The notes beneath the pieces were generated by a model. That model did no database searches. It had not been told where the DNA came from and worked only from the letters and a program-made list of their open reading frames with translations. Both the position numbers and the translations under genes were made by a program. This document shows positions 37,914 through 51,797 of a stretch of DNA of 64,000 bases, piece after piece; positions within the stretch are counted from its first letter, which is position 1; each line of letters starts with the position of its first letter. This stretch comes from Actinoalloteichus hymeniacidonis (GTDB taxonomy: Bacteria > Actinomycetota > Actinomycetes > Mycobacteriales > Pseudonocardiaceae). Where the stretch lies: assembly GCF_014203365.1 (NCBI RefSeq), contig NZ_JACHIS010000001.1, positions 3,348,001 through 3,412,000 on the forward strand, written 5' to 3'.

Positions 37914-39758
37914 GTGAGATCGAATCCCCGCCCACGCATCGGTTCCGCCCGTACGGCGGCGCCCGACGCACGTCGCACGACCCGACGACGCAGATCGATC
38001 GGCGCATTATTCGCAGGCGCGATGGCGATGGTGATGACCATCGGCGCCGCCGTTCCCGCCCTCGCCGAGTCCCGGTCCGAGGCATCCCAGGCCGCCGGGA
38101 CCGTCTCCGCCGAACCGGCGCTGGCTCCGCCCGGCGACAAGGACGTCACCGCGGTGCTCTTCGAGCAGACCTTCGCCTCGGTGTCCCGCGCCTGCACCGA
38201 GGTACTCGGCCCGAAAGGCTACGGGTACGTCCAGGTCTCGCCGCCGCAGGAACGGATCCAGGGTTCACAGTGGTGGACGGCGTACCAGCCGGTCAGCTAC
38301 CGGATCGCCGGACCGCTGGGCGATCGAGCCGCCTTCCAGAGCATGATCGGTGCCTGCAACGACGCGGGCGTCGAGGTCATCGTGGACGCGGTGGTCAACC
38401 ACATGTCCGCAGGCTCCGGAACTGGCACCGGCGGCACGCAGTACTCGAAGTACGACTACCCCGGGCACTATCAGGACCAGGACTTCCACGGCTGCCGCCG
38501 AGACATCGACAACTACAACGACCGGTACAACGTCCAGCAGTGCGAACTCGTCGGTCTGTCCGACCTGAACACGAGCAGCGAGTACGTGCGCTCCGAGATC
38601 GCCGAATATCTCGACGATCTGATCGGGATGGGCGTGGCGGGCTTCCGCGTCGACGCGGTGAAACACATCGACACCGATGATCTCCGGGCCATCAAGGACC
38701 GACTGTCCGACCCCGGCGTCTACTGGGTCCAGGAGGCCATCTACGGCGCGGGCGAGGCGGTGAGCCCGAGCGAGTATCTGCAGAACGGTGACGTGCAGGA
38801 ATTCCGCTACGCGACCGATCTGAAGCGGGTCTTCAACAACGAGAACCTCGCGTACCTGGAGAATTTCGGCGAGGCGTGGGGATACATGCCCTCGGCGCAG
38901 TCGGGCGTGTTCGTCACCAATCACGACACCGAACGCAACGGGTCGACGCTGAGTTACAAGGACCAGGCGAACTTCACGCTGGCCAATGTCTTCATGCTCG
39001 CCCATCCCTTCGGCACCCCCTCGGTGCACTCCGGCTATGACTTCTCCAACCACGACGCGGGCGCGCCGAACGGGGGCGAGGTCAGCGCCTGCTACACCGA
39101 TGGCTGGGGCTGCCAACACGCCTGGCCGCAGATCGCCAACATGGTCGGCTTCCGCAACGCCGCAGGCGATACCGCCGTCACCCACTGGTGGGACAACGGC
39201 AACGACGCCATCGCCTTCGGTCGGGGCGACCGGGCCTTCGTCGCCATCAACCAGGAGAACGGCGGGCTCACCCAGACGTTCCAGACCGGACTACCCGCAG
39301 GCACCTACTGCGACGTGCAGCACGGCGGCCCGACGGGATCCGGCGGCTGCACCGGGCCCACCTACACCGTCGACGGCGACGGCCGGTTCACCGCGACGAT
39401 CGGCGCGCGCGACGCCGTGGCGCTACATGTCGGCGCCACCGGCTCCCCCGCTCCCGAACCGGGACGCGGCGGTGCCTCGTTCAGCGTGACCGCGAGCACG
39501 GTCTTCGGCGAGAACATCTTCGTCGTCGGCGACCGCGCGGAGCTGGGCAGCTGGAATCCGGCGGCCGCCCTGCCGTTGTCCGCCGCCGACTATCCGAGGT
39601 GGACCCGGGACGTCGCGCTGCCCGCCGGGGTCGTCGCGCAGTACAAGTATCTGCGCAAGGACGCGAGTGGGGCCGTCACCTGGGAGCAGGGTGGTAACCG
39701 GTCGTTGACCGTGCCCGCCACCGGAACGATCCGGCTGACCGATTCCTGGCGCTCGTAA
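37914..39758 (+). CDS. Secreted alpha-amylase, GH13 with C-terminal CBM20 starch-binding domain
   Basis: A 614-residue exported alpha-amylase. After a Tat/Sec-like basic signal region ([32 protein letters not shown]) comes the GH13 barrel with its four conserved regions: [22 protein letters not shown] (nucleophile Asp), WVQEAIYG (acid/base Glu) and [10 protein letters not shown] (stabilising Asp). Then follow domain C and a CBM20 starting near [25 protein letters not shown]. The layout matches streptomycete amylases of subfamily GH13_32. GTG 37914 follows AAGGAGGTAACC, a strong ribosome site. It degrades starch outside the cell; products may be imported by the sugar ABC system at 41-44 kb. 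Confidence 0.95.
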
Positions 39759-40643: not shown

Positions 40644-41055
40644 GCCGACGGCGGGCAGCATCCGCCGCCACGACCCCGCGTGAATCGCCCGCCTGCGCCG
40701 CAGGCGGGCGATACGTTTCGTCCCGGATTTCGATCTCCCGTCGACGTCGGGGTCGATATGCCGCTCGAATTTCGATTCGATCGACCGAGTCAACCCTCCA
40801 ATTCGACGCCGTTTCCAGCGAACGCAATTCGATCCCGCCGACTCGCAGCCGGCGCAGTCCTCGACGGCAATCGTCGGAATAACCGCCGCCGAATGTCGGA
40901 TCGCCTGCCATGATTCTTTTTTCCTCGACAATGGTGCGCTAGTGTCCGACGGCGCCGAGGCTTCGTCGAATGCACGTATCGACGGGCGGCGGCCACCATG
41001 GTCGACGGCCCTGGGTCGACCGTTCTCGCCGATGCGGTCGACGGAGGTTCACGGG
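40644..41055. other. Intergenic region SRPBCC / sugar ABC operon
   Basis: About 410 bp. It begins with the strong hairpin at 40684-40712 and then has moderately AT-richer DNA (40720-40940, including GATTCTTTTTTCC). No supported gene. The promoter of the sugar-transport operon should lie in 40900-41050, but I cannot pick out a -10/-35 pair or a clear LacI-type palindrome. Confidence 0.4.
40684..40712. terminator. Strong hairpin terminator
   Basis: Perfect inverted repeat ATCGCCCGCCTGCG / CGCAGGCGGGCGAT around a single central base, 40 bp after the SRPBCC stop. No T-tract, as usual in actinomycetes. Confidence 0.65.
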
Positions 41056-42333
41056 GTGCACAGCTCACGCGAGCGCGGCAAGCCGCTGCGATCACCCACG
41101 CCCGGTTCGTTCAGCAGAAGAAACCTGCTGCGTGGCACCGGCCTGGGACTGCTCGCCGCAGGCGGGATCGGCACCCTCTCGGCCTGCGGTTCCTCTCGGG
41201 ACGATGCCGCGCTGCAGTGGTGGGACTACATCATCGAGCCCGAACGGCAGGCGGGCGTCGAGGCCTTGATCGCCGAGATCGAGCAGGCTCATCCCGACAT
41301 CCGCATCGAACGCCGGGTCTTCCCCTATGCCGATCTGCAACCCGCGTTATTGCGCGGGGCGATTTCGGGCGAATTACCCGATATCGCGGTCGTGGATACC
41401 GTCCAGGTCGGCATTCTCGGCGGCTATGGCTTATTGGCCGACCTGACCGAACAGGTGCATCGCTGGGGCGAGGCGACCAACTACGTCCCTGCCGCCTGGG
41501 ATGCAGGCGTGATCGACGATCGGATTCTCTCGATTCCCAATAACAGCAATTGCCTGGCACTGATCTCCAACGTCGATCACCTGGAGGAGGCCGGTGTCGA
41601 GGTGCCCTCGGACTGGGCCGAGCTGGCCACGGTGGGCCACGCATTGACGACCCCGGAGCATCGGGGGCTCGCGGTCTGCGCCACCGCCTCGGAGGAGGGC
41701 GTCTTCCAGTTCCTACCGTTCCTCTGGCAGACCGGCGGCGATCTCGCCGACTTCGACACCTCGGGCGCCGAGGCGTTGGAACTACAGCAGCAGCTCGTCG
41801 CCGACGGCGTGCTGTCCGGGCAGGCCGTCGGGTGGACGCAGCAGGACGTGGCAGGCCAGTTCATCTCCGGAGCCGCCTCGATGATGATCAACGGACCGTG
41901 GCAGCTGCCCACGCTGCGCGCAGCCGAAGACCTGCGGTTCCGCGTGGACCCCCTGCCCGCCGGACAGACCAGGGCCTCCTGTCTCGGCGGCGAGGGCTGG
42001 ACGGTGATCGCGGGCTCGACGAAGGTCGACGCCGCCTGGCGGGTCATCGAGTACTCGCAGCGCCGCGAGGTGCTGGTGCCCTATCTGGACACCATGGGCC
42101 TGTTGCCCGCCCGAGCCGACCTGACCGATGCGGGCCCGTGGGCGCGCGACCCCGAGCTCCAGATCTTCCTGGCCGAGTTGCATCACGCCCGCCCGAGGGC
42201 CTACGGCGCGGCCTATCCGGAGATCTCCAACGAGGTGTCCCGCGCGCACCAGACGGTGCTCTCCGACCCGGACGCCGACCCCGCCGCCGTCGCCGCCGAC
42301 GCCTTCACCCGGATCGCGGGTGATCTGCCGTGA
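41056..42333 (+). CDS. Sugar ABC transporter substrate-binding lipoprotein
   Basis: A 425-residue extracellular solute-binding protein of the maltose/trehalose/oligosaccharide family (family 1). The signal region has a twin-arginine motif SRRNLLRG (about 20-27) and a lipobox LSAC (Cys 44), so it may be a Tat-exported lipoprotein. Family blocks: LQWWDYIIEPE, ALIAEIEQAHPDIRIE, LPDIAVVDTVQV, GAASMMINGPWQLP and GWTVIAGSTKV. GTG 41056 has GGAGG 8 nt upstream; longer in-frame starts would add a non-signal-like extension. It starts a three-gene importer; the sugar cannot be told, though the nearby amylase makes alpha-glucans plausible. Confidence 0.9.
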   Translation: MHSSRERGKPLRSPTPGSFSRRNLLRGTGLGLLAAGGIGTLSACGSSRDDAALQWWDYIIEPERQAGVEALIAEIEQAHPDIRIERRVFPYADLQPALLRGAISGELPDIAVVDTVQVGILGGYGLLADLTEQVHRWGEATNYVPAAWDAGVIDDRILSIPNNSNCLALISNVDHLEEAGVEVPSDWAELATVGHALTTPEHRGLAVCATASEEGVFQFLPFLWQTGGDLADFDTSGAEALELQQQLVADGVLSGQAVGWTQQDVAGQFISGAASMMINGPWQLPTLRAAEDLRFRVDPLPAGQTRASCLGGEGWTVIAGSTKVDAAWRVIEYSQRREVLVPYLDTMGLLPARADLTDAGPWARDPELQIFLAELHHARPRAYGAAYPEISNEVSRAHQTVLSDPDADPAAVAADAFTRIAGDLP

Positions 42334-43319
42334 CGAGGCCGACGGCGACCTCCGATGCCACCGACGAGCCGGGAACGGCGACCAGTCTGCACACGGCGAG
42401 GCCCGGCTCGCACCGACGGCGACGACGGGGGCATCTGGCGGCCACCCGGCGCACCGAGGGTCTGCTGCTCGCTGCGCCCGCGTTGGTCTTCCTGGCCGCG
42501 CTGCTGCTGTTCCCACTGCTCTACAACCTCGTCACCTCGTTCCTCGACGTCGATCTGGCGGGTCTGCTCGGTGAGGGGACCCCGTTCGTCGGCGGCGAGA
42601 ACTACCGCGCCGCCGTGTCGGAGTCGGACTTCTGGGCGGCCGTCGGGTTGACCCTCGTGTTCACCGTCGGTTCGCTGGTACTCCAATTCGGGATCGGGTT
42701 CGCGCTGGCGCTGCTGTTCGCCAGGGACTTCCCGTTCAACGGTCTATTGCGCTCCCTGATGCTGGTCGCGTGGCTGCTGCCGCCGGTGGTGAGCGGCTCG
42801 CTGTTCCGCTGGATGCTCGATGGCGACGTCGGCGCCTATAACGCGATCCTGCGCTCGCTGGGGCTGGACGCCCTGACCAATACCTGGCTCACCGACACCG
42901 GAACCGCGTTGGGCGGGGTGATCTTCGCCAACGTGTGGATCGGTGTGCCCTTCAACATGATCCTGCTGTTGGTCGGATTGGTCTCCCTGGACCGCGACCT
43001 CTACGCCTCCGCCGCGCTGGATGGAGCGAGTGCCTGGCAACGGTTCCGCTTCGTGACGCTGCCGCTGATGCGCCCGGTATCGGCGGCGGTGCTCCTGCTC
43101 GGATTGATCTACACGTTCAAGGCCTTCGACATCGTCTTCGTGATGACCGGTGGTGGCCCGGTGGACGCGACCCGGGTGCTGCCCCTGCTGGCCTACGAGC
43201 AGTTCTTCGAGTTCTTCCGCTTCGGCGAGGGAGCCGCGATCACGGTGCTGCTGTTGGTGATCCCGTTGGTGGTGTCCATCTGGTACGTCCGCCGGATCGG
43301 CAAGGAGGGCGATCGGTGA
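42330..43319 (+). CDS. Sugar ABC transporter permease (MalF/ThuF type)
   Basis: A 329-residue membrane protein with about six TM segments after a ~45-residue cytoplasmic N-terminus (GSHRRRRRGHLAATRRTEGLLLAAPALVF). It carries the BPD EAA-like loop DLYASAALDGASAWQRFRFVTLPLM and the ending QFFEFFRFGEGAAITVLLLVIPLVV, typical of MalF-like sugar permeases. GTG 42330 overlaps the binding-protein stop by 4 bp, and its own stop overlaps the next permease by 4 bp. Confidence 0.91.
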   Translation: MTRPTATSDATDEPGTATSLHTARPGSHRRRRRGHLAATRRTEGLLLAAPALVFLAALLLFPLLYNLVTSFLDVDLAGLLGEGTPFVGGENYRAAVSESDFWAAVGLTLVFTVGSLVLQFGIGFALALLFARDFPFNGLLRSLMLVAWLLPPVVSGSLFRWMLDGDVGAYNAILRSLGLDALTNTWLTDTGTALGGVIFANVWIGVPFNMILLLVGLVSLDRDLYASAALDGASAWQRFRFVTLPLMRPVSAAVLLLGLIYTFKAFDIVFVMTGGGPVDATRVLPLLAYEQFFEFFRFGEGAAITVLLLVIPLVVSIWYVRRIGKEGDR

Positions 43320-44143
43320 CCCGCACCCGCAGACCATGGCTGCTCACCGGCATCGCGACGGCGATCGTCGCGGTCTTCCTGCTGCCGCTCTATTGGATGG
43401 TCGCCACCAGTCTGAAGCGGCCGGAGAACGTCCTGGCCATCCCGCCGCAGTGGGTGCCGCTGCCGCCTTCGGGCGAGAACTACGCCTCGGCCATCGCCGA
43501 TCCACTGCTGACGCAGGCGTTGCTGAGTAGCGCGATCATCGCCCTGGGGACGACGATCCTCACACTGCTGCTGGCCGCGCCGCTCACCTATGCGATCACT
43601 CGGACGGGGGTGCCGGGCTCCCGTTCGATGCTGTTGGCCATGATGGTGGCCCAGCTGCTGCCCAGCATCGTGTTGGCGGCGCCGTTGCTGCTGCTCATGC
43701 GCATCATCGGCCTCACCGACACTCACCTTGGGCTCATCCTGGCCGACACCACGCTGACGCTGCCGTTCGCCGTGATCGTGCTGCGGCCGCTGATGGCCGC
43801 GCTGCCCATGGAGTTGGAGGAGGCCGCCAGGATGGACGGGGCCTCGATGGTGGACGTGCTGCGGCGGGTGGTGCTGCCGGTGCTGCGTCCCGGACTGATC
43901 GCGGCGGGCGCCTTCGCGTTCCTGCTGGCCTGGGGCGAGTTCGTCTTCGGTATCACCCTGGCCAGTTCGGAGTCGGTGCAGCCGGTCACCGTGCTGCTGA
44001 ACTCCTTCGTCGGCCGGTACGGAACGGCCTGGGGATCGTTGATGGCTGTGGCGACGCTGATCAGCGTCCCGATCGTGCTGATCTTCGCGGCGTTCCAGCG
44101 TTTCATCGTCAGCGGTCTCACCTCGGGCAGCGTCAAGGCCTGA
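43316..44143 (+). CDS. Sugar ABC transporter permease (MalG/ThuG type)
   Basis: A 275-residue membrane protein with six TM helices and the MalG-type EAA loop ELEEAARMDGASMVDVLRRVVLPVLRPG. GTG 43316 overlaps the upstream permease stop by 4 bp. The first TM (WLLTGIATAIVAVFLLPLYWMVATSLK) is followed by the PPQWVPLPPSGENY loop typical of carbohydrate permeases. No ATPase gene follows. In actinomycetes a shared ATPase (MsiK) often serves several such importers, so one encoded elsewhere is expected. Confidence 0.92.
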   Translation: MTRTRRPWLLTGIATAIVAVFLLPLYWMVATSLKRPENVLAIPPQWVPLPPSGENYASAIADPLLTQALLSSAIIALGTTILTLLLAAPLTYAITRTGVPGSRSMLLAMMVAQLLPSIVLAAPLLLLMRIIGLTDTHLGLILADTTLTLPFAVIVLRPLMAALPMELEEAARMDGASMVDVLRRVVLPVLRPGLIAAGAFAFLLAWGEFVFGITLASSESVQPVTVLLNSFVGRYGTAWGSLMAVATLISVPIVLIFAAFQRFIVSGLTSGSVKA

Positions 44144-44283: not shown

Positions 44284-44410
44284 TCGGCCGTCACTCCAAT
44301 GAGGACGGTGCAGTTTCTGCTGCGCGATGGGGGAAGCCGGTGCGAATCCGGCGCTGACCCGCAACCGTGAGCGCCTGCCTGTGGCAGGTGCGAGTCGGAC
44401 TGCCCATCGT
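44284..44410 (+). ncRNA. Cobalamin riboswitch
   Basis: The leader contains the conserved cobalamin (B12) riboswitch core: GGGGAAGCCGGTGCGAATCC, then GGCGCTGACCCGCAACCGTG, an optional hairpin GCGCCTGCCTGTGGCAGGTGC, and the 3' element GAGTCGGACTGCCC. It lies 102 nt upstream of the first of three exported-protein genes on the same strand. B12 binding should reduce expression of the operon. This is the only metabolite riboswitch I recognise in the window. Confidence 0.93.
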
Positions 44411-44511
44411 GCCGCATTGTCCAGCTCCTCTGTCGTGGAATGCAGCGCGGAGCTTCGGAGCCGATCGGCTCCGGACTGCGGTCTGCGGTGAACCGAAGGG
44501 AACTCCAGGCC

Positions 44512-45084
44512 ATGTCCTCGAGTCGTTCGATCCATCGTGTCTTAGCCGGATTCTTCGCGGGCGCCCTGCTGGTGGCGGGCGCACCCGCCGTCGCTGCGGC
44601 CGACCCGCTGCCCGACGAGGTCGGTATCGCCGCCTGGACCGACGGGCCGTGCACCGGAAGCAGCGGTGTCACGGTGGTCGTCGACTTCACCGGGCACGCC
44701 GGTGGCGAGGTGGTCCGGCGGTGCACCGACCTCGACCCCGCCACGGCCTTCGCCGCGCTGACCGATGTCGACGTCGCACCCGAGCACGGCGTCGGAGAGG
44801 GCGAGGCGGGCCCCTACCAGTACCTGTGTCGGATCGACGGCCTGCCCAGTGCGACCGACGACAGCTGCACCGGGTTCCTGCCCGACGCGTCCTACTGGGC
44901 GTTCTGGGTGCCCGACGTGACCGGCACGGCCTGGGGCTACGCCGACGAGGGCGTGGACACCTACGACCCGCCGTCGGGTGATGTCCTCGGCTTCTCCTTC
45001 GGTGCGGGCACCGCCGCAGACCCGAACGAGATGAGCCTGACGCTGGCCGAGGCCCTCGATCCCGATTGGGTGCCCGCGCCCTGA
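44512..45084 (+). CDS. Secreted DUF4430/transcobalamin-beta-domain-like protein under B12 riboswitch
   Basis: A 190-residue exported protein: signal peptide to about residue 30 (HRVLAGFFAGALLVAGAPAVAAA), then one ~150-residue domain with no membrane anchor. It reads VTVVVDFTGHAGGEVVRRC, QYLCRIDGLPS, SYWAFWVPDVTGTAWGYADEG and LGFSFGAGTA. The aromatic YWAFWV/WGY pattern and its cysteine-paired layout are shared with the protein at 46685, its paralogue. The domain resembles DUF4430, the family to which the C-terminal beta domain of animal transcobalamin/intrinsic factor is related. It directly follows a cobalamin riboswitch, so a role in corrinoid capture is inferred. Its stop overlaps the next start (ATGA). 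Confidence 0.72.
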   Translation: MSSSRSIHRVLAGFFAGALLVAGAPAVAAADPLPDEVGIAAWTDGPCTGSSGVTVVVDFTGHAGGEVVRRCTDLDPATAFAALTDVDVAPEHGVGEGEAGPYQYLCRIDGLPSATDDSCTGFLPDASYWAFWVPDVTGTAWGYADEGVDTYDPPSGDVLGFSFGAGTAADPNEMSLTLAEALDPDWVPAP

Positions 45085-46679
45085 TGGTCCGATTCCGCTC
45101 CGGGCTCGCGGCAGGCGCACTCCTGCTGATCGTCGGGCTCGTTCATCCCACCGCCTCGGCGGATCCGACACCGGGTGTCGGATCCGCCGAGGCGGGCACG
45201 GCGGCCGGGTTCCTGGAACGGGAACTCGTCCGACTGGACTACGTCTTCCCGTCCACCACCCCGGGGACGCCGGACAGTGGCCTGCTGGCGGACACCCTGA
45301 TCGGGCTGCACGCGGCCGACCGGCATGGCGAGGCCTTCTCCCAGGGAGTGCGCTCGCTGCGGGAGATGTACTACAACGGCCGGATCACCGTCTCCGGCGG
45401 TGTCGCGAAACGCCTGATGGTCGCCGTTCGGGCGGGCGTCGACCCCACCGATTGGGGGGTGGACTCCGAGGGCGTGCCGATCGACCTTCCCGCGCGGTTG
45501 TCCGCGACCCTCGACGTCGACGGGCGCTATCGCAATCTCAACGTCGGCGAGTACGACCCTCGTCGCGACCTGTCCAACACCTTCTCGCAGTCTCTGGCGT
45601 TGATGGCGATGCAGGAGCACGCCGACCAGGCGCGGCTGACCCTCGATCAACAACCCAGCATCGACTACCTGGTCCGCCAACAGTGCCCGAGCGGCGGATT
45701 CCGCAACGCCCCGCCCGTCGCCGACGTCGGATCGACGTGTTCGGAGACCGACGACGCACTGGTCAGTGTGGACAACACGGCGATGGCGGTCTGGGCGCTG
45801 GCGGAGGTCGGCGGCGACCAGGCGGCCTTGGACCGGGGTGTGCGGTGGTTGCGCGAGCGGCAACACTCCGGCGGCGGATTCGGCTTCGACTCCTCCTCGC
45901 CGCAGCTGATCGAGCAGACCCTCAACGCCAACAGCACCGGACTGGCCGCGCTCGCCCTCACCTCGGCGGGCGCAGCCGAGCCCGCCGGGAGGGCGGGTGG
46001 CTGGCTGAGTTCGGTACAGCTTCCCCCCGACGTCGCACCGGGGGACATGGCGGGCGCGGTGTCCTACTCGACACAGGACTATCTGGACGTCTTGGAGGAC
46101 GGCCCGCTCTATTGGAGTCGCGCGGGCAACCAGGACCGGCTGCGCCGCTCGACCTCGCAGGCGCTGCTCGGGTTGTCCGCGACGCCACCGACGGACCCGC
46201 CTCCGCCACCCGCGCCGGAACCTCCCCCGACCGATCCTCCGCGAGAATCCGAACCGCCCGAGCCCGGTGAACCGGGAGTACCGGGAGTACCGGGAGCGCC
46301 GGGCCGACCGGGGGCTCCTGGGGAGCCGGGTGCGCCGGGGCAACCCGGCCTGCCGGGTCTACCGGGTCATGCCGGGTCACCCGGGTACGCCGGTACGAAC
46401 GGCCTCGATGGGGAGTCCGCCGAGGAGACGGCCGAGGAGACCGAACAGGCGACCGGTGAATCCGACCGTTCCGAGCTGTCTTGGTTCGGCGGCCAGACTC
46501 CACAGCCGAGCACCGAGGACCACGCGTCCGCAGCGACGAACCCGCCGGGCCCGGCCGCAGCGCTCATCGCCTTCCTTCGGACTCCGGCGGGTTCGGCGAC
46601 GGCGATCGGTGCGGCATTACTGCTCGCGGCGGCGAGTTATCTGTTGATCGGCCGGTTGGGTCGACGAGCGAAGGTGTGA
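45084..46679 (+). CDS. Surface-anchored alpha/alpha-toroid protein with collagen-like stalk (transcobalamin alpha-domain-like)
   Basis: A 531-residue exported protein. Signal peptide (about 1-27); then ~330 residues of helical-hairpin repeats with prenyltransferase/terpene-cyclase-toroid motifs such as VDNTAMAVWALAEVGG, GVRWLRERQHSGGGFGF and NSTGLAALALTSAG. The same DxTAMAxLAL-type repeats build the cobalamin-binding alpha domain of intrinsic factor and transcobalamin. Next come a proline-rich linker, sixteen uninterrupted Gly-X-Y triplets (about 395-443), an acidic segment and one C-terminal TM helix (ATAIGAALLLAAASYLLIGRL) with a basic tail. It sits between two beta-domain-like proteins in a B12-riboswitch operon. 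Cobalamin binding is inferred; no enzyme active site is seen. Confidence 0.75.
   Translation: MVRFRSGLAAGALLLIVGLVHPTASADPTPGVGSAEAGTAAGFLERELVRLDYVFPSTTPGTPDSGLLADTLIGLHAADRHGEAFSQGVRSLREMYYNGRITVSGGVAKRLMVAVRAGVDPTDWGVDSEGVPIDLPARLSATLDVDGRYRNLNVGEYDPRRDLSNTFSQSLALMAMQEHADQARLTLDQQPSIDYLVRQQCPSGGFRNAPPVADVGSTCSETDDALVSVDNTAMAVWALAEVGGDQAALDRGVRWLRERQHSGGGFGFDSSSPQLIEQTLNANSTGLAALALTSAGAAEPAGRAGGWLSSVQLPPDVAPGDMAGAVSYSTQDYLDVLEDGPLYWSRAGNQDRLRRSTSQALLGLSATPPTDPPPPPAPEPPPTDPPRESEPPEPGEPGVPGVPGAPGRPGAPGEPGAPGQPGLPGLPGHAGSPGYAGTNGLDGESAEETAEETEQATGESDRSELSWFGGQTPQPSTEDHASAATNPPGPAAALIAFLRTPAGSATAIGAALLLAAASYLLIGRLGRRAKV
46266..46412 (+). repeat. Collagen-like Gly-X-Y repeat tract
   Basis: Sixteen consecutive triplets, GEP-GVP-GVP-GAP-GRP and onward to GYA-GTN-GLD, mostly with proline in the third position. 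The DNA is repetitive (CCGGGAGTA units). It encodes a probable triple-helical stalk, which would make the protein a trimer. Confidence 0.85.
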
Positions 46680-46684
46680 CGCCG

Positions 46685-47578
46685 ATGAGGCTGGTGCAAC
46701 GGGTCGGTGTCATCGCGGTCGCGACCCTCGCGGCCCTCGCGGGCACGGTGATCGGAACGGCTCCGGTTCCCGCCGAGGCCCAGGCCTGCACGGCGTCCAC
46801 CGGGGTCGTGGTCGTCGTCGACTTCGGCGCCCTCGGCGGTTCGGCGGTGTCCCGCTGTGTGCCCGGCACGCCCGAGACCGGCTACGCCGCCCTGCAGGAG
46901 GCGGGGTTCCGACTGGCGGGCACCGCGCACGACGGGGCGGGGTTCATCTGTCGTATCGACGGTCGGCCCGGGCCCGAGCAGGAGGCGTGCGATGACACGC
47001 CCTCCGGCGACGCCTACTGGTCGTACTGGGTCGACGAACCGGGCGGTAACGGCTGGTCGTACAGCAGCAGGGGCGCACTGGCGTCCTATCCCGAAGTCGA
47101 CCGGATCGAGGGCTGGTCCTTCGGCGCGGGCGATCCGCCCGGGTTGACCGGCGCGGCCGCCAGGTCGCATTTCACCGGCGCCGAGCCGCCCGAGGAGGGC
47201 CCCGGCGCGCCGGACGCCGACCGGCCGGGGACGCCGGACCGTCCGTCGCCGGGCGATCCAGCAGCACCGCCCGAGGAACCCCGAACACCGGATCAGGCCC
47301 AGCTTCCCGACGCGCCGAATTCCGACCAGAACGGCGATCGAGCCGACGTCGACTCGAGCGACGCACCGGAATCCGCATCGCAGGACCCGTCCGCAGGGCA
47401 GGAAGCCGAGTCCCCCGGTTCGGCGTCGCAGGACGGTGGGCAACAGGTCGCAGGCGAGGCCGCCGAGGAGACCGCCGGCGGCGTGCCCTGGGCGACGCTG
47501 ATCGCCTTCGCGGCGATCTGGGTGCTGGGCATCGCCGCCGGGATCGCAGCGAGGAGGAGACGACGTCGGGCCGAGTAG
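46685..47578 (+). CDS. Membrane-anchored DUF4430/transcobalamin-beta-domain-like protein
   Basis: A 297-residue exported protein. A signal peptide (VGVIAVATLAALAGTVIGTAPVPAEA) precedes a domain paralogous to that of the 44512 protein (VVVVVDFGALGGSAVSRC, GFICRIDGRPG, YWSYWVDEPGGNGWSYSSRG, GWSFGAGDPPG). A long Pro/Glu/Asp-rich linker (about residues 160-255) leads to a C-terminal TM helix (TLIAFAAIWVLGIAAGIAA) and a basic RRRRRR tail. It starts 5 bp after the toroid gene. The topology places the domain outside the cell on a flexible tether. With the toroid protein it could form the two halves of a split transcobalamin-like receptor. The function is inferred from operon and riboswitch. Confidence 0.72.
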   Translation: MRLVQRVGVIAVATLAALAGTVIGTAPVPAEAQACTASTGVVVVVDFGALGGSAVSRCVPGTPETGYAALQEAGFRLAGTAHDGAGFICRIDGRPGPEQEACDDTPSGDAYWSYWVDEPGGNGWSYSSRGALASYPEVDRIEGWSFGAGDPPGLTGAAARSHFTGAEPPEEGPGAPDADRPGTPDRPSPGDPAAPPEEPRTPDQAQLPDAPNSDQNGDRADVDSSDAPESASQDPSAGQEAESPGSASQDGGQQVAGEAAEETAGGVPWATLIAFAAIWVLGIAAGIAARRRRRRAE

Positions 47579-47626: not shown

Positions 47627-48523
47627 CTAGACGATGCTCGATCCCCTGGCGAGGAACAACATGACGACCAGACCCGAGGTCAGGACGGTGGCGTGGAAGG
47701 GCCACCGACTCGTCGGAGCGGCCGGTAGAGCGGTGCCCGTGATCGCCACAAGCCCGGCCACCCCGGCGAGGAGCAGGCTGATCAGCGTGATCCGGTCGGG
47801 CGCCGCCAGCAGGACGGCGACGGCCGTGAGCAACAGCAACGGCGTCAGGACACGGCAGGCGGTACGGCCGATCCGTTGAGGGAACCCGTGCACTCCGGTC
47901 GCCACATCGCCCTCGATGTCGGGCATCGCGTTGACCAGGTGGGCGGCCACCCCCAGCAGGGCCGCCACCAGGACCGCCCACCAGGCGGGCCACGGCCTGT
48001 CGGGCAGGCCGAGGGTGATGAACGGCAGCAGCGAGCCGAAGCCCACCGCGTAGGCCAGTGGGGACATCAGGGTGCGCTTGAGCCCCAGGTTGTAGGCCCA
48101 TCCCGCGACCGTGCCCACCAGGTGGATCGACCCGGCGAGCACCCCGCCTGCCAGTGACAGCGGAATGCAGACCGCCAACGCGATCGCGGCGGCCACCGCC
48201 ACCGAGTTCCCGTCGATCCCGCCGGTCGCCGCGGGCTTGTCCCGACGGCCGGTGCGCAGATCTCGGCGAGCGTCGATCGCGTCGTTACTCCAGCCGATGG
48301 ACAGCTGCCCGGCCAGCACCGCCGCCGCGACCAACGTCGCTCCCGCAGATCCCCGGCCGACCGCCACCGCGAGAATCGTCGCGAAGGCGGTGACCGCCAC
48401 CGTCGGTCCGGGGTGGGCGCTGCCCAGCAGCGCCACGATCCGCCGTCCGGTCGACGGCGGCCGGTCGAGACCGACGGCGGGCTCGGTCGGGGGCGGTGGG
48501 CTGGTCCGACGGCGCAGTTCCAC
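47627..48523 (-). CDS. agqD: UbiA-family prenyltransferase (AgqD-like)
   Basis: A 298-residue membrane prenyltransferase with about eight TM segments. It has the first Asp-rich motif SNDAIDARRD (NDxxDxxxD) and the second region MPDIEGD, which bind prenyl diphosphate through Mg2+. It is convergent with the B12 operon and next to a methyltransferase, a FAD monooxygenase and a type III PKS. That gene set matches the agqA-D cluster of Actinoplanes missouriensis for alkyl-O-dihydrogeranyl-methoxyhydroquinones, so it probably attaches a geranyl-type chain to an alkyl-quinol. GTG 48523 is used; longer frames run into the divergent methyltransferase region. Confidence 0.85.
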   Translation of the reverse strand: MELRRRTSPPPPTEPAVGLDRPPSTGRRIVALLGSAHPGPTVAVTAFATILAVAVGRGSAGATLVAAAVLAGQLSIGWSNDAIDARRDLRTGRRDKPAATGGIDGNSVAVAAAIALAVCIPLSLAGGVLAGSIHLVGTVAGWAYNLGLKRTLMSPLAYAVGFGSLLPFITLGLPDRPWPAWWAVLVAALLGVAAHLVNAMPDIEGDVATGVHGFPQRIGRTACRVLTPLLLLTAVAVLLAAPDRITLISLLLAGVAGLVAITGTALPAAPTSRWPFHATVLTSGLVVMLFLARGSSIV

Positions 48524-48673
48524 TCGGTCAGTCTTACCCGCAGCGCGCGGGATCCGACACCGCCGCCACGCGCGAGGACATACCTTCGGGCCTCGCCGAC
48601 GACTATGTTCGGCAGCAGGATTCTCGCCAGCAGGCAGGCCCGAGGGAAACCCGTCGACAAGGGATGGTCGCCA

Positions 48674-49195
48674 ATGCCGTGGTATCTCCTGCTCGTAGCG
48701 GCCGTGGGGTTGGAGCGGCTGGCCGAGCTCGTCGTGGCCCGCCGCAACCAGCAGCGAAGCCTGGCCAGGGGCGCCCGAGAGTACGGGCAGGGCCACTACC
48801 CGGTCATGGTCGTGCTGCACACCAGTCTGTTGGTGGCCTGTGTGGCCGAGGTCGTCCTAGCGGATCGACCGTTCATCCCCGCGCTGGGGGTGCCCATGCT
48901 GGTCCTCGTGCTGCTCGCACAAGCCCTGCGTTGGTGGTGCATCCGCACTCTCGGCGATGCCTGGAACACCCGGGTGTTGGTCGTGCCGGGGGCCGAGTTG
49001 GTCGCGGGTGGGCCTTATCGCTTCCTCCGGCACCCCAACTACGTCGCGGTCGTCGTGGAGATCGTTGCACTGCCACTGGTGCACTCGGCCTGGCTGACGG
49101 CGGTGGTGTTCAGCGTCGCCAACGCGGCGCTGCTCACGGTGCGCATCCGATGTGAGAACGCCGCGTTGGACCAGCCACGGCCCGCGATCGCGTGA
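48674..49195 (+). CDS. agqB: Isoprenylcysteine carboxyl methyltransferase-family protein (AgqB-like O-methyltransferase)
   Basis: A 173-residue membrane methyltransferase with four to five TM segments and the ICMT hallmark GPYRFLRHPNYVAVVVE near residues 115-131, which binds S-adenosylmethionine. Small ICMT-like enzymes beside type III PKS genes (BpsB, AgqB) methylate alkylpyrones or alkylresorcinol-derived phenols rather than isoprenylcysteine. AAGGGA lies ~9 nt before ATG 48674. It overlaps the next gene by 4 bp (GTGA) and is divergent from the UbiA gene. Confidence 0.86.
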   Translation: MPWYLLLVAAVGLERLAELVVARRNQQRSLARGAREYGQGHYPVMVVLHTSLLVACVAEVVLADRPFIPALGVPMLVLVLLAQALRWWCIRTLGDAWNTRVLVVPGAELVAGGPYRFLRHPNYVAVVVEIVALPLVHSAWLTAVVFSVANAALLTVRIRCENAALDQPRPAIA

Positions 49196-50223
49196 CCGGG
49201 GACGCCGATCTGTTGATCGCCGGGGGCGGCCCGGCAGGGTTGGCGACGGCCCTGTACGCACTTCGCGCAGGGTTGCAACCGATGATCGTCGAACCCCGCT
49301 CCGAGGGGACGGACAAGGCCTGCGGCGAGGGCCTGATGCCGAGCGCGGTACGGGCGCTGGACGAGCTGGGCGTGTCGGTGCCGGGACAGCCGATCAGCGG
49401 GATCCGCTATGTCCAGGATGGACTTCGCGTGGCAGCGGAATTCCGGGATGGCACGGGATTGGGCGTACGCAGGACGGTCCTGCACACCGCGTTGCACCGA
49501 GCGGCGGTGGCGGCGGGGGTGCCGATCCGCCGTGGCAGGGTGACGGAGGTCCGGTCCGAGTCCGCCGGTGTCGTCGTCCCGGAGCTAGGGCTGCGCGGGC
49601 GCTGGCTCGTCGCCGCCGACGGATTGCACTCGCCGGTGGCCCGCGGTCTCGGCCTGGTGGTCGACGATCGGCGGGCTCCCCGGTTCGGTCTGCGCAGGCA
49701 CTTCGCCGTGGCGCCCGGTTCCTCCTCGGTGGAGGTGCACCACGGACCACACGGCGAGGCCTATCTGACGCCGGTGGGCCCCGAGCTGACCGGCGTCGCG
49801 TTGTTGACGACACGTCGGGCGCCGTTCGGCACGCAGCTCGCCGCGTTTCCCGCCTTGGCGCAGCGTTTCACGCCCGAGCTGGCGGTGACGGCCGTGCGTG
49901 GCGCCGGTCCGCTGCGACGGCGGGTCCGCCGCCGCGTCGCCGATCGAGTCCTGCTGGTCGGCGACGCGGCGGGCTATGTGGATGCCATCACGGGCGAGGG
50001 CATCGCCTTGGCGTTGTCGGGGGCGGCGGCGTTGGTCGACTGTCTGCGGCGGGGTCGACCGCAGGACTACGAGGCTGTGTGGCGGCGGGCCACCCGACGG
50101 CATCGGTTGTTGACGGAGTTGCTCGTCGCGGCACGGACCACTCCGCTGACGGCGAATCGGATCGTGCCCGCAGCCAGGCGGTTCCCCTCGGTGTTCGCCG
50201 CCGTGGTCAACGCCCTGGCGTGA
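49192..50223 (+). CDS. agqC: FAD-dependent monooxygenase (AgqC-like)
   Basis: A 343-residue flavoprotein of the p-hydroxybenzoate-hydroxylase/geranylgeranyl-reductase superfamily. It has the N-terminal GxGxxG motif LLIAGGGPAGLATAL, a DG-type motif (WLVAADGLHSPVARGLG) and the second FAD motif VLLVGDAAGYVDAITGEGIALAL. In the agq system this enzyme hydroxylates the alkylresorcinol ring to a hydroquinone. GTG 49192 overlaps the methyltransferase stop by 4 bp. It is convergent with the type III PKS gene, only 27 bp apart. Confidence 0.87.
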   Translation: MTGDADLLIAGGGPAGLATALYALRAGLQPMIVEPRSEGTDKACGEGLMPSAVRALDELGVSVPGQPISGIRYVQDGLRVAAEFRDGTGLGVRRTVLHTALHRAAVAAGVPIRRGRVTEVRSESAGVVVPELGLRGRWLVAADGLHSPVARGLGLVVDDRRAPRFGLRRHFAVAPGSSSVEVHHGPHGEAYLTPVGPELTGVALLTTRRAPFGTQLAAFPALAQRFTPELAVTAVRGAGPLRRRVRRRVADRVLLVGDAAGYVDAITGEGIALALSGAAALVDCLRRGRPQDYEAVWRRATRRHRLLTELLVAARTTPLTANRIVPAARRFPSVFAAVVNALA

Positions 50224-50250
50224 CGGCCGAGCATCCCATCGACATCGGGG

Positions 50251-51384
50251 TCACCAGCGGAGCAGGACGAGCTCCGAGCAGAAGCCGGGGCCCATCGCGA
50301 GCAGCACCGCGAAGGAGCCCGGAGCGGGTGCCTCGGCGATCGTGCGACGCAGCACGTCCAGGACGGAGGCGGAGGACAGGTTTCCGTTGGCGGCCAGCGA
50401 TGCCACGGTGTGCCGCAGCGCGTCGGGAGCCAGGTCGAGGGAGTCCCGGACCGCCTCGATGACCTTGGGGCCGCCGGGATGACAGATCCAGTGCGCGATG
50501 TCGCCCGTGGTGAGACCGTGGTCGGAGAGGAAGGCGACCACGTCCTTGCTGAGGAATTCCCGGGCGATGGCCGGGACGTCGGTGGAGAGCACCAGCCGGA
50601 AGCCGTCGGCTCCGATGTCCCAGCCCATGACCGCTTCGCTGTCGGGATAGAGCCTGCTACGGGTGGCGATCACGGTCGGCCCTGGGTGTTCGATCTCGCA
50701 GGCGCTGCCGGTCAACACGACGGCGGCGGCCCCGTCGCCGAACAGACTGCTGCCGACGATGTTGGCCGCCGAGGCATCGCCGCGTTGCAGGGTCAGCGAG
50801 CACAGTTCCACCGAGAGCAGGATCGCCACCTGATCGGGCCAGGCCAGCAGATAGTCGTGCACCCGCGCGATCCCCGCAGCGCCCGCGACGCAACCGAGGC
50901 CGAACATCGGAATTCGCTTCACGTCCTCGCGCAGCCCCAACCGCTGCGCCAATCTGGCCTCCAAAGACGGGACGGCCAATCCCGTGACGGTCGTCGAGAC
51001 CACCAGATCGACCTCCTCCGGTGCGATGCCCGCCACCGCCAATGCGCGGCGCACCGCCTGCTCGCCCAGTTCCAACGCGGAGGCGAGATAGGCCTCGTTG
51101 GCCTCGGTGAAGTCCGCCAATCGGCGCAACCGTTCGATGGGAACCGCGAAATGTCTGGTCCGAACGCCGGAGTTACCCGAGATGCGCTGCGCCGCACGCC
51201 GACGTGAGTCACCGGGAGAGAGGATCTCCTCGACGAATGCCGCCGAGATCTCCTCCTGCCGATAGACGTGCTCGGGGAAGGCCATCGCGGACGAGGCCAC
51301 CCGTGCTCCACTGCCGGGCCACCGGGTCGCCTCCCGTGTCGCGGCACCGTGGTGACCGGCGGAGTTCTCCCTGCGCTGAGACAT
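50251..51384 (-). CDS. agqA: Type III polyketide synthase (AgqA-like)
   Basis: A 377-residue chalcone-synthase-fold homodimer subunit. The catalytic triad is visible: Cys in FGLGCVAGAAG (about 165), His in WICHPGGPKV and Asn in ANGNLSSASV. The C-terminal LAMGPGFCSELVLL is the conserved GPG loop. Together with AgqB/C/D-like neighbours it should build an alkylresorcinol or alkylpyrone from a fatty acyl starter and malonyl-CoA. ATG 51384 is preferred over ATG 51390 because GGAGG touches the latter. It is transcribed alone on the minus strand, convergent with the FAD monooxygenase. Confidence 0.92.
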   Translation of the reverse strand: MSQRRENSAGHHGAATREATRWPGSGARVASSAMAFPEHVYRQEEISAAFVEEILSPGDSRRRAAQRISGNSGVRTRHFAVPIERLRRLADFTEANEAYLASALELGEQAVRRALAVAGIAPEEVDLVVSTTVTGLAVPSLEARLAQRLGLREDVKRIPMFGLGCVAGAAGIARVHDYLLAWPDQVAILLSVELCSLTLQRGDASAANIVGSSLFGDGAAAVVLTGSACEIEHPGPTVIATRSRLYPDSEAVMGWDIGADGFRLVLSTDVPAIAREFLSKDVVAFLSDHGLTTGDIAHWICHPGGPKVIEAVRDSLDLAPDALRHTVASLAANGNLSSASVLDVLRRTIAEAPAPGSFAVLLAMGPGFCSELVLLRW

Positions 51385-51797
51385 CGACATCCTCCACTCG
51401 CGTCCCCGGTTCGCGTCCCACTGCGCGGCAGGCGCGATCGCCGCTCAAGCCGGACGTCGAGTGTCTGCGGTCACGACTGAGAAAGCTCAATGCCACCGCC
51501 GGGGATGGAATTGGTTCAACGGTCGATGTTCATCATCCATGGGTTGGGGCGGGCCGGCAGCCGTGCGACGCACGTCGGCGCTGGTCGGCGCAGCGCACCA
51601 TCCATTCGCGACTCGCCGGTAGGCCGGTCGTCCCATCGCAGCACGCCGAAGGGCGTAGCCAGGACCGGCGCGTCGGGCTCTGCCGCCGGCCGGCGGCCGC
51701 AGGCCATCCGACCCGCATCGCAACTGCCGGTCGGCGGCCATCGCGTCGTCGTGCATGGTTCACGCGGTGGCCGCTCGCCTGCCCCTGCTCGGTTCGT
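51385..51797. other. Intergenic region type III PKS / methyltransferase
   Basis: About 410 bp with no convincing gene. Short open frames on both strands are arginine/proline-rich and lack codon bias. The type III PKS promoter should lie at its left end (minus strand). No hairpin of note apart from scattered GC-rich stems. Confidence 0.4.

Follow-up and report, generated by a model that had tools for sequence, protein, structure and literature searches.

A cobalamin riboswitch operon of Actinoalloteichus hymeniacidonis likely encodes a split, transcobalamin-like surface capture module for an energy-coupling factor B12 importer

We analyzed a stretch of 64,000 nucleotides (the window) of the actinobacterium Actinoalloteichus hymeniacidonis, covering positions 3348001-3412000 of its 6.3 Mb, one-contig genome (GCF_014203365.1), in which a cobalamin riboswitch heads an operon of three genes, P0001, P0002 and P0003 (Table 1). 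We hold with good confidence that this operon is a B12-repressed surface capture module for a B12 importer of the energy-coupling factor (ECF) type, the exported proteins probably being the outside catching parts of the importer. A preliminary description of this DNA had read the operon as a transcobalamin-like system split between polypeptides, a reading that our analysis supports. The evidence consists of the riboswitch, the gene order, one predicted beta fold, the toroid family, natural fusions, and the linkage and co-occurrence with ECF genes.

The riboswitch at the head of the operon, proposed from the letters alone, was recovered by the covariance model above its gathering cut-off and is the sole Rfam match at gathering score in the whole window. 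In two other species of the genus (hereafter the congeners), the same genes are also preceded by a riboswitch above the cut-off (42.0 and 42.3 bits). Among more distant relatives, a single peptide pattern gave 107 confirmed candidates, from which we used the best 79 loci (selection capped at 80), each comprising up to 9 kb on either side of the toroid match. The core of a B12 riboswitch lies at most 2.5 kb 5' of the toroid match, on the plus strand, in 69 of the 79, such that the co-occurrence with B12 riboswitches proposed for survey in the preliminary description is indeed frequent. This core was located with a regular expression of our own, made after the Rfam consensus and looser than Rfam, which matched once in 694,335 shuffled bases (40 of the 79 loci; control preserving single-base composition only). 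The other 10 loci have no match ahead of the toroid, yet one of them, L043, passes Rfam. The Rfam scan of relatives covered 7 of the 79 loci and gave gathering-score matches in three (L043, L066, and L099). At a looser threshold, L050, L044, and L045 reached 30.3, 25.1, and 20.9 bits, all below 31.5, and L065, scanned at gathering score only, gave no riboswitch. Given the Rfam score, the two congeners, and the frequent core ahead of the relatives' toroid matches, a chance riboswitch was rejected. From the class of the riboswitch, one would expect low cobalamin to permit expression of the operon. The Shine-Dalgarno-like motif of the leader may be the ribosome-binding site of P0001. The whole leader folds more stably than its shuffles (z = -2.57), and the part 3' of the aptamer has no clear excess stability (z = -1.08, with 32 of 200 shuffles equally stable). 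Hence, the folding of the leader is not decisive.

As previously described, the three genes overlap or nearly so: the ATG of P0002 overlaps the TGA of P0001 by one base, and P0003 starts 5 bases past the stop of P0002. The start of P0001 at 44512 is identical in both aligned congeners and directly opens a signal-like stretch; an in-frame ATG at 44440 is GTG in both congeners. All three proteins have an N-terminal hydrophobic signal-like stretch, identified by hydropathy only, in agreement with the proposed export. The proposed tethering to the surface looks right for two of the proteins but not for the third. By hydropathy, P0002 and P0003 (residues 270-288) have C-terminal hydrophobic stretches trailed by basic residues, and P0001 has no such anchor. 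Judging by these features, P0002 and P0003 look anchored, and P0001 looks released. The collagen-like stretch of P0002 sits between the toroid and the membrane segment and is present in both congeners; a collagen-like regular expression that matches P0002 gave no match in 9938 open reading frames (ORFs) of the 79 loci and of loci L009-L012 of the same genome. Among the 79 loci, a sortase-like L[A/P]xTG motif ends 44 of 69 toroid ORFs, which shows that the anchoring varies while the head is kept.

Table 1. Features of the riboswitch-headed operon, in window coordinates
Feature	Coordinates	Strand	Basis or remark
Cobalamin riboswitch aptamer (RF00174)	44290..44425	+	cmscan 39.2 bits, gathering cut-off 31.5; model positions 1-189
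Shine-Dalgarno-like GAAGGGA	44495..44501	+	10 bases 5' of the P0001 ATG; identical in three aligned species
P0001, exported beta-domain protein (beta1 type), 190 aa, no membrane tail	44512..45084	+	
P0002, exported alpha/alpha-toroid protein, stalk and C-terminal membrane segment, 531 aa	45084..46679	+	
Toroid domain of P0002	45162..46187	+	profile A1 against PDB
Collagen-like G-x-y stalk of P0002, residues 394-445	46263..46418	+	Pfam Collagen, 37 bits, cut-off 27.2, E = 2.8e-9
C-terminal membrane segment of P0002, residues 505-523	46596..46652	+	hydropathy 1.95
P0003, exported beta-domain protein, long linker, C-terminal membrane segment, 297 aa	46685..47578	+	
Beta domain of P0003, transcobalamin-type beta-grasp fold, four conserved cysteines	46775..47185	+	

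The likeness of the beta half to transcobalamin and intrinsic factor, initially a prediction, is visible in the structural model of the P0003 beta domain. Its nearest structures are the beta domains of intrinsic factor, transcobalamin, and haptocorrin, with a clear gap before the next row. The helix of the model (36-42) is also followed by an extra beta-hairpin (strands 47-50 and 54-61), which is given as the mark of the transcobalamin-like clade (PMC1796856). Both the modelled fold and the hairpin thus place this domain among the transcobalamin-like SLBB beta domains. This predicted fold is the only place where the kinship shows: transcobalamin and intrinsic factor are absent from the PDB matches of the beta profile up to E = 10, and neither P0001 nor P0003 matches a Pfam family in a Pfam search. 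The two beta proteins find each other across species, P0003 as a single query matching the P0001 of a congener at 7.9e-23 and P0001 matching the P0003 of a congener at 3.6e-15. We relied on these single-sequence matches, because both proteins are rows of profile A2 and their E-values against it are circular. As a single query, the P0003 beta domain has ORF matches in 70 loci (E up to 1e-3), and in the beta tree P0001 clusters with the upstream beta domains from three Amycolatopsis loci. The YWxxWV/WxY pattern of the beta proteins and the DNTAMAVWAL-type repeats of the toroid protein are as first described and lie in strongly conserved columns; the toroid also has an invariant Asp.

The toroid of P0002 was assigned with profile A1 (19 rows, including this domain), which has 37 PDB matches: squalene cyclases, related cyclases, and complement TED domains (squalene-hopene cyclase at 9.1e-21), with transcobalamin absent from the 37. 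In 6 of the 79 loci, beta and toroid are in one reading frame, with the beta domain first. One such fused protein, L065, folds as an alpha/alpha toroid in a predicted structure with a high predicted template modelling score (pTM). A Crossiella protein (L050:8482-11151) combines a single beta domain with two toroid stretches on the same polypeptide and has a weak match to an LAxTG sortase motif at its end.

The connection with an importer comes from the relatives, where the usual gene order is riboswitch, (beta), toroid, beta, followed by the T, ATPase (A), and S genes of an ECF importer. Of the 79 loci, 65 contain all three ECF genes together with a beta domain. To this linkage we can add co-occurrence among 297 genomes of the family, 70 of which have a toroid match (E up to 1e-6, using the P0002 toroid domain as single-sequence query) and 86 an S component (E up to 1e-20). 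All 70 toroid genomes have the S component, and in 63 it lies within 12 kb of the toroid. The Fisher p of 6.5e-53 for this co-occurrence counts related genomes as if they were independent and should not be read as a probability. Near-relatives inflate the counts, and the tally per genus gives the toroid in 13 and the S component in 14 of 46.

In A. hymeniacidonis itself, the genome gave one toroid match and two beta matches, all within the window, and the ECF S gene is about 274 kb from the operon, behind T, A, and a B12 riboswitch (40.3 bits). The models PF12822 (31.8 bits, cut-off 30.7), CbiQ (31.7, cut-off 25), and ABC_tran (in two stretches) were matched, and the genome thus has the S, T, and ATPase parts of an importer. 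The preliminary description had placed the partners of the operon elsewhere in the genome, and this riboswitch-headed importer is a good candidate for them. Its riboswitch control and the linkage in relatives suggest that it carries B12.

Several observations weigh against this reading. Concerning the ligand, the S component matches general ECF models only, riboflavin-type and folate-type models both staying below cut-off, and the same genome has a BtuFCD-like candidate B12 importer near a sub-threshold B12 riboswitch (27.8 bits). In favour of the reading, the genome itself may need corrinoid import, because it has no match to CobN and none above cut-off to CobJ/CbiH (three matches are weaker). 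Only four methylase-family matches were found, one being an rRNA methylase. This is suggestive of a genome that may not make the corrin ring, with search sensitivity and unusual pathways unexplored for these negatives. If ring-making steps are missing, salvaging incomplete corrinoids would pay, and the ligand could be another corrinoid-related compound or tetrapyrrole (cobinamide, incomplete corrinoids, or heme) that the ECF importer takes up for salvage. There is a precedent in CbrUVT, listed as an importer for cobyrinate diamide (PMC8123684). We regard such a ligand as unlikely, since this riboswitch family senses cobalamin and the beta fold matches cobalamin binders. The present data separate no corrinoid species.

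Concerning the folds, the 50 structural neighbours listed for the L065 toroid are terpene cyclases and sugar enzymes; within this list, it resembles terpene cyclases more closely than transcobalamin. The toroid half of the initial reading therefore stands as an alpha/alpha toroid, by profile and by the fold of L065, but transcobalamin and intrinsic factor are not among the best 50 rows. The profile searches that had been suggested gave no help: PF01122 (Eukaryotic cobalamin-binding) is not listed for the P0002 toroid at E up to 1, and DUF4430, to which the beta domains had been related, is listed by Pfam for none of the 74 beta rows at the same limit. PF01122 is listed for 6 of the 19 rows of A1 (best 0.014) and for only 14 of the 89 rows of profile A3, 55 of which have a toroid (best 4.3e-4). 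One might see in the toroid an enzyme that is exported, resembles class II terpene cyclases or AprG, and acts on a corrinoid or another molecule, while the beta proteins alone bind the corrinoid for the ECF importer. This seems quite improbable to us: alpha/alpha toroids are generally similar, and the nearest structural rank tells little, whereas the export signals, the beta-toroid fusions, the high-pTM fused model, and the riboswitch control fit binding better. We also know of no exported terpene cyclase that partners a vitamin importer, which counts against an enzyme.

The capture module is also not uniform in its composition. The toroid is not always present: among the 16 genomes that have the S component but gave no direct toroid match, 15 have the beta domain and 6 a strong profile toroid match (E below 1e-50), and 9 have the beta domain without a strong toroid match. 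Judging from these nine, among the 16 genomes surveyed for the beta domain, the beta protein seems to form the core, with the toroid as an addition. The nine (G140, G170, G192, G193, G222, G238, G245, G277, and G290) are possibly a lid-less version. The full set of ECF genes and beta is incomplete in 14 of the 79 loci, and 8 have neither ECF genes nor beta, two of these on contigs under 7 kb. In the genus Actinoalloteichus, the ECF genes are unlinked to the operon; the congeners show the same separation, with its own riboswitch above cut-off on each of the two operons. Finally, one protein of the three, P0001, looks unanchored. The separation and the free P0001 would suit a module that hoards B12 outside the cell, for denial to competitors or for storage, uncoupled from the importer, but we give this very little credence in view of the 65 loci with T, A, S, and beta together and of the S component in every toroid genome of the family sample.

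For a capture module serving the ECF importer, we propose the following mechanism. Under cobalamin shortage, the riboswitch would allow expression of the operon. P0002 and P0003 would stay attached to the outside of the membrane, with the collagen-like stalk carrying P0002, and P0001 would be secreted free. Going by the folds, the beta domain would bind the corrinoid and the toroid would close over it, and the captured corrinoid would then be handed to the S component of the importer (T, A, and S). The halves of human transcobalamin, when made separately, assemble only with cobalamin, and the same is cited for intrinsic factor (PMC5599065), which makes a naturally split carrier mechanistically plausible. 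More generally, we lean towards an actinobacterial ECF vitamin importer with an extracytoplasmic catcher. This would be a two-lobed, transcobalamin-type clamp whose separate polypeptides, some anchored (here on a collagen-like stalk) and others released, assemble around B12; the beta lobe would be its core and the toroid an optional lid.

Little seems known, as far as we are aware, of extracellular B12 capture by Gram-positive bacteria. In Bacteroides, BtuH is reportedly a further surface B12 binder, besides BtuG, found by linkage to B12 transport genes. The folds of BtuG and BtuH differ from the beta and toroid folds described here, and these proteins belong to an outer-membrane system. BtuG is a surface B12 catcher for an importer, found by its linkage to B12 transport genes (PMC6143338), which our proteins would resemble if they bind B12. 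The bacterial transcobalamin-like SLBB proteins (Burroughs et al. 2007, PMC1796856) are similar in being exported and partly anchored and in having SLBB and toroid parts, predicted to bind B12 jointly. Their clade was placed in low-GC Gram-positives, planctomycetes, and less often euryarchaea, and the consulted parts of that article do not name the actinobacterial cassette, the riboswitch, or the ECF partner found here. The B12 importer ECF-CbrT likewise has T, A, and S parts, and its import of corrinoids would be shared by the importer here (PMC5997447). ECF importers are described there with the membrane-embedded S component as sole binding part; unlike in our system, exported binding proteins are not mentioned for ECF-CbrT in the consulted parts of the source. 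Compared with intrinsic factor, transcobalamin, and haptocorrin of animals, the halves are separate here, or fused beta-first in the six relatives, there are two beta proteins and two proteins with membrane segments, DUF4430 is not matched, and the toroid of the fused relative L065 is closer to terpene cyclases (best 50 rows).

Two families named after locus tags are matched below their curated cut-offs, and the names of these models give no function. P0002 matches the SCO2321 family NF053823 at 6.1e-23 (81.4 bits, far below the cut-off of 300), and P0001 the SCO2322 family NF040672 at 1.2e-4 (22.5 bits, far below 85), against which P0003 scores 15.2 bits. Among the best matches listed in the open literature, we found no publication tying these actinobacterial proteins to an ECF B12 importer. 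Within that scope, the actinobacterial link of riboswitch, split halves, stalk, and ECF importer appears new, while SLBB and toroid proteins and ECF B12 importers were already known. If our reading is true, bacteria have their own multi-protein equivalent of the B12 carriers of animals, and ECF importers have a class of exported receptors. If the proteins bind B12, a function can be assigned to the SCO2321- and SCO2322-type families, the animal carriers have a bacterial counterpart that can be studied, and a natural system is at hand for testing how cobalamin drives two separate halves to assemble.

Some other loci and neighbouring genes deserve mention. The BtuF-, BtuC-, and BtuD-like genes of the BtuFCD-like candidate, a second possible B12 importer, are all below NCBIfam cut-offs and lie on the minus strand in L011 (G000:C1:2068000-2082000). 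In L010 (G000:C1:4006000-4025000), two B12 riboswitches (73.6 and 61.3 bits) lie near an ATP-binding cassette (ABC) permease, whose best match is an "anchored repeat-type" model, below cut-off. At L142:9356-12249, a uroporphyrinogen-III methyltransferase (TIGR01469, over cut-off) adjoins a CobM/CbiF-like protein below cut-off. As regards B12 importers, the claim that no ABC or ECF transporter adjoins the operon is right. Directly 5' of the riboswitch, however, lies an ABC importer of the sugar type, made up of an SBP_bac_8 binding protein and two permeases (40942-44143). We rejected it as the partner, as it is a sugar-type system placed before the riboswitch. It is accompanied by an alpha-amylase-like protein (37914-39758) with its best NCBIfam match below cut-off. 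On the other side, a UbiA prenyltransferase, an ICMT-type methyltransferase, an FAD-dependent oxidoreductase, and a type III polyketide/chalcone synthase-like gene are grouped at 47627-51390, possibly as a small prenylated-polyketide cluster.

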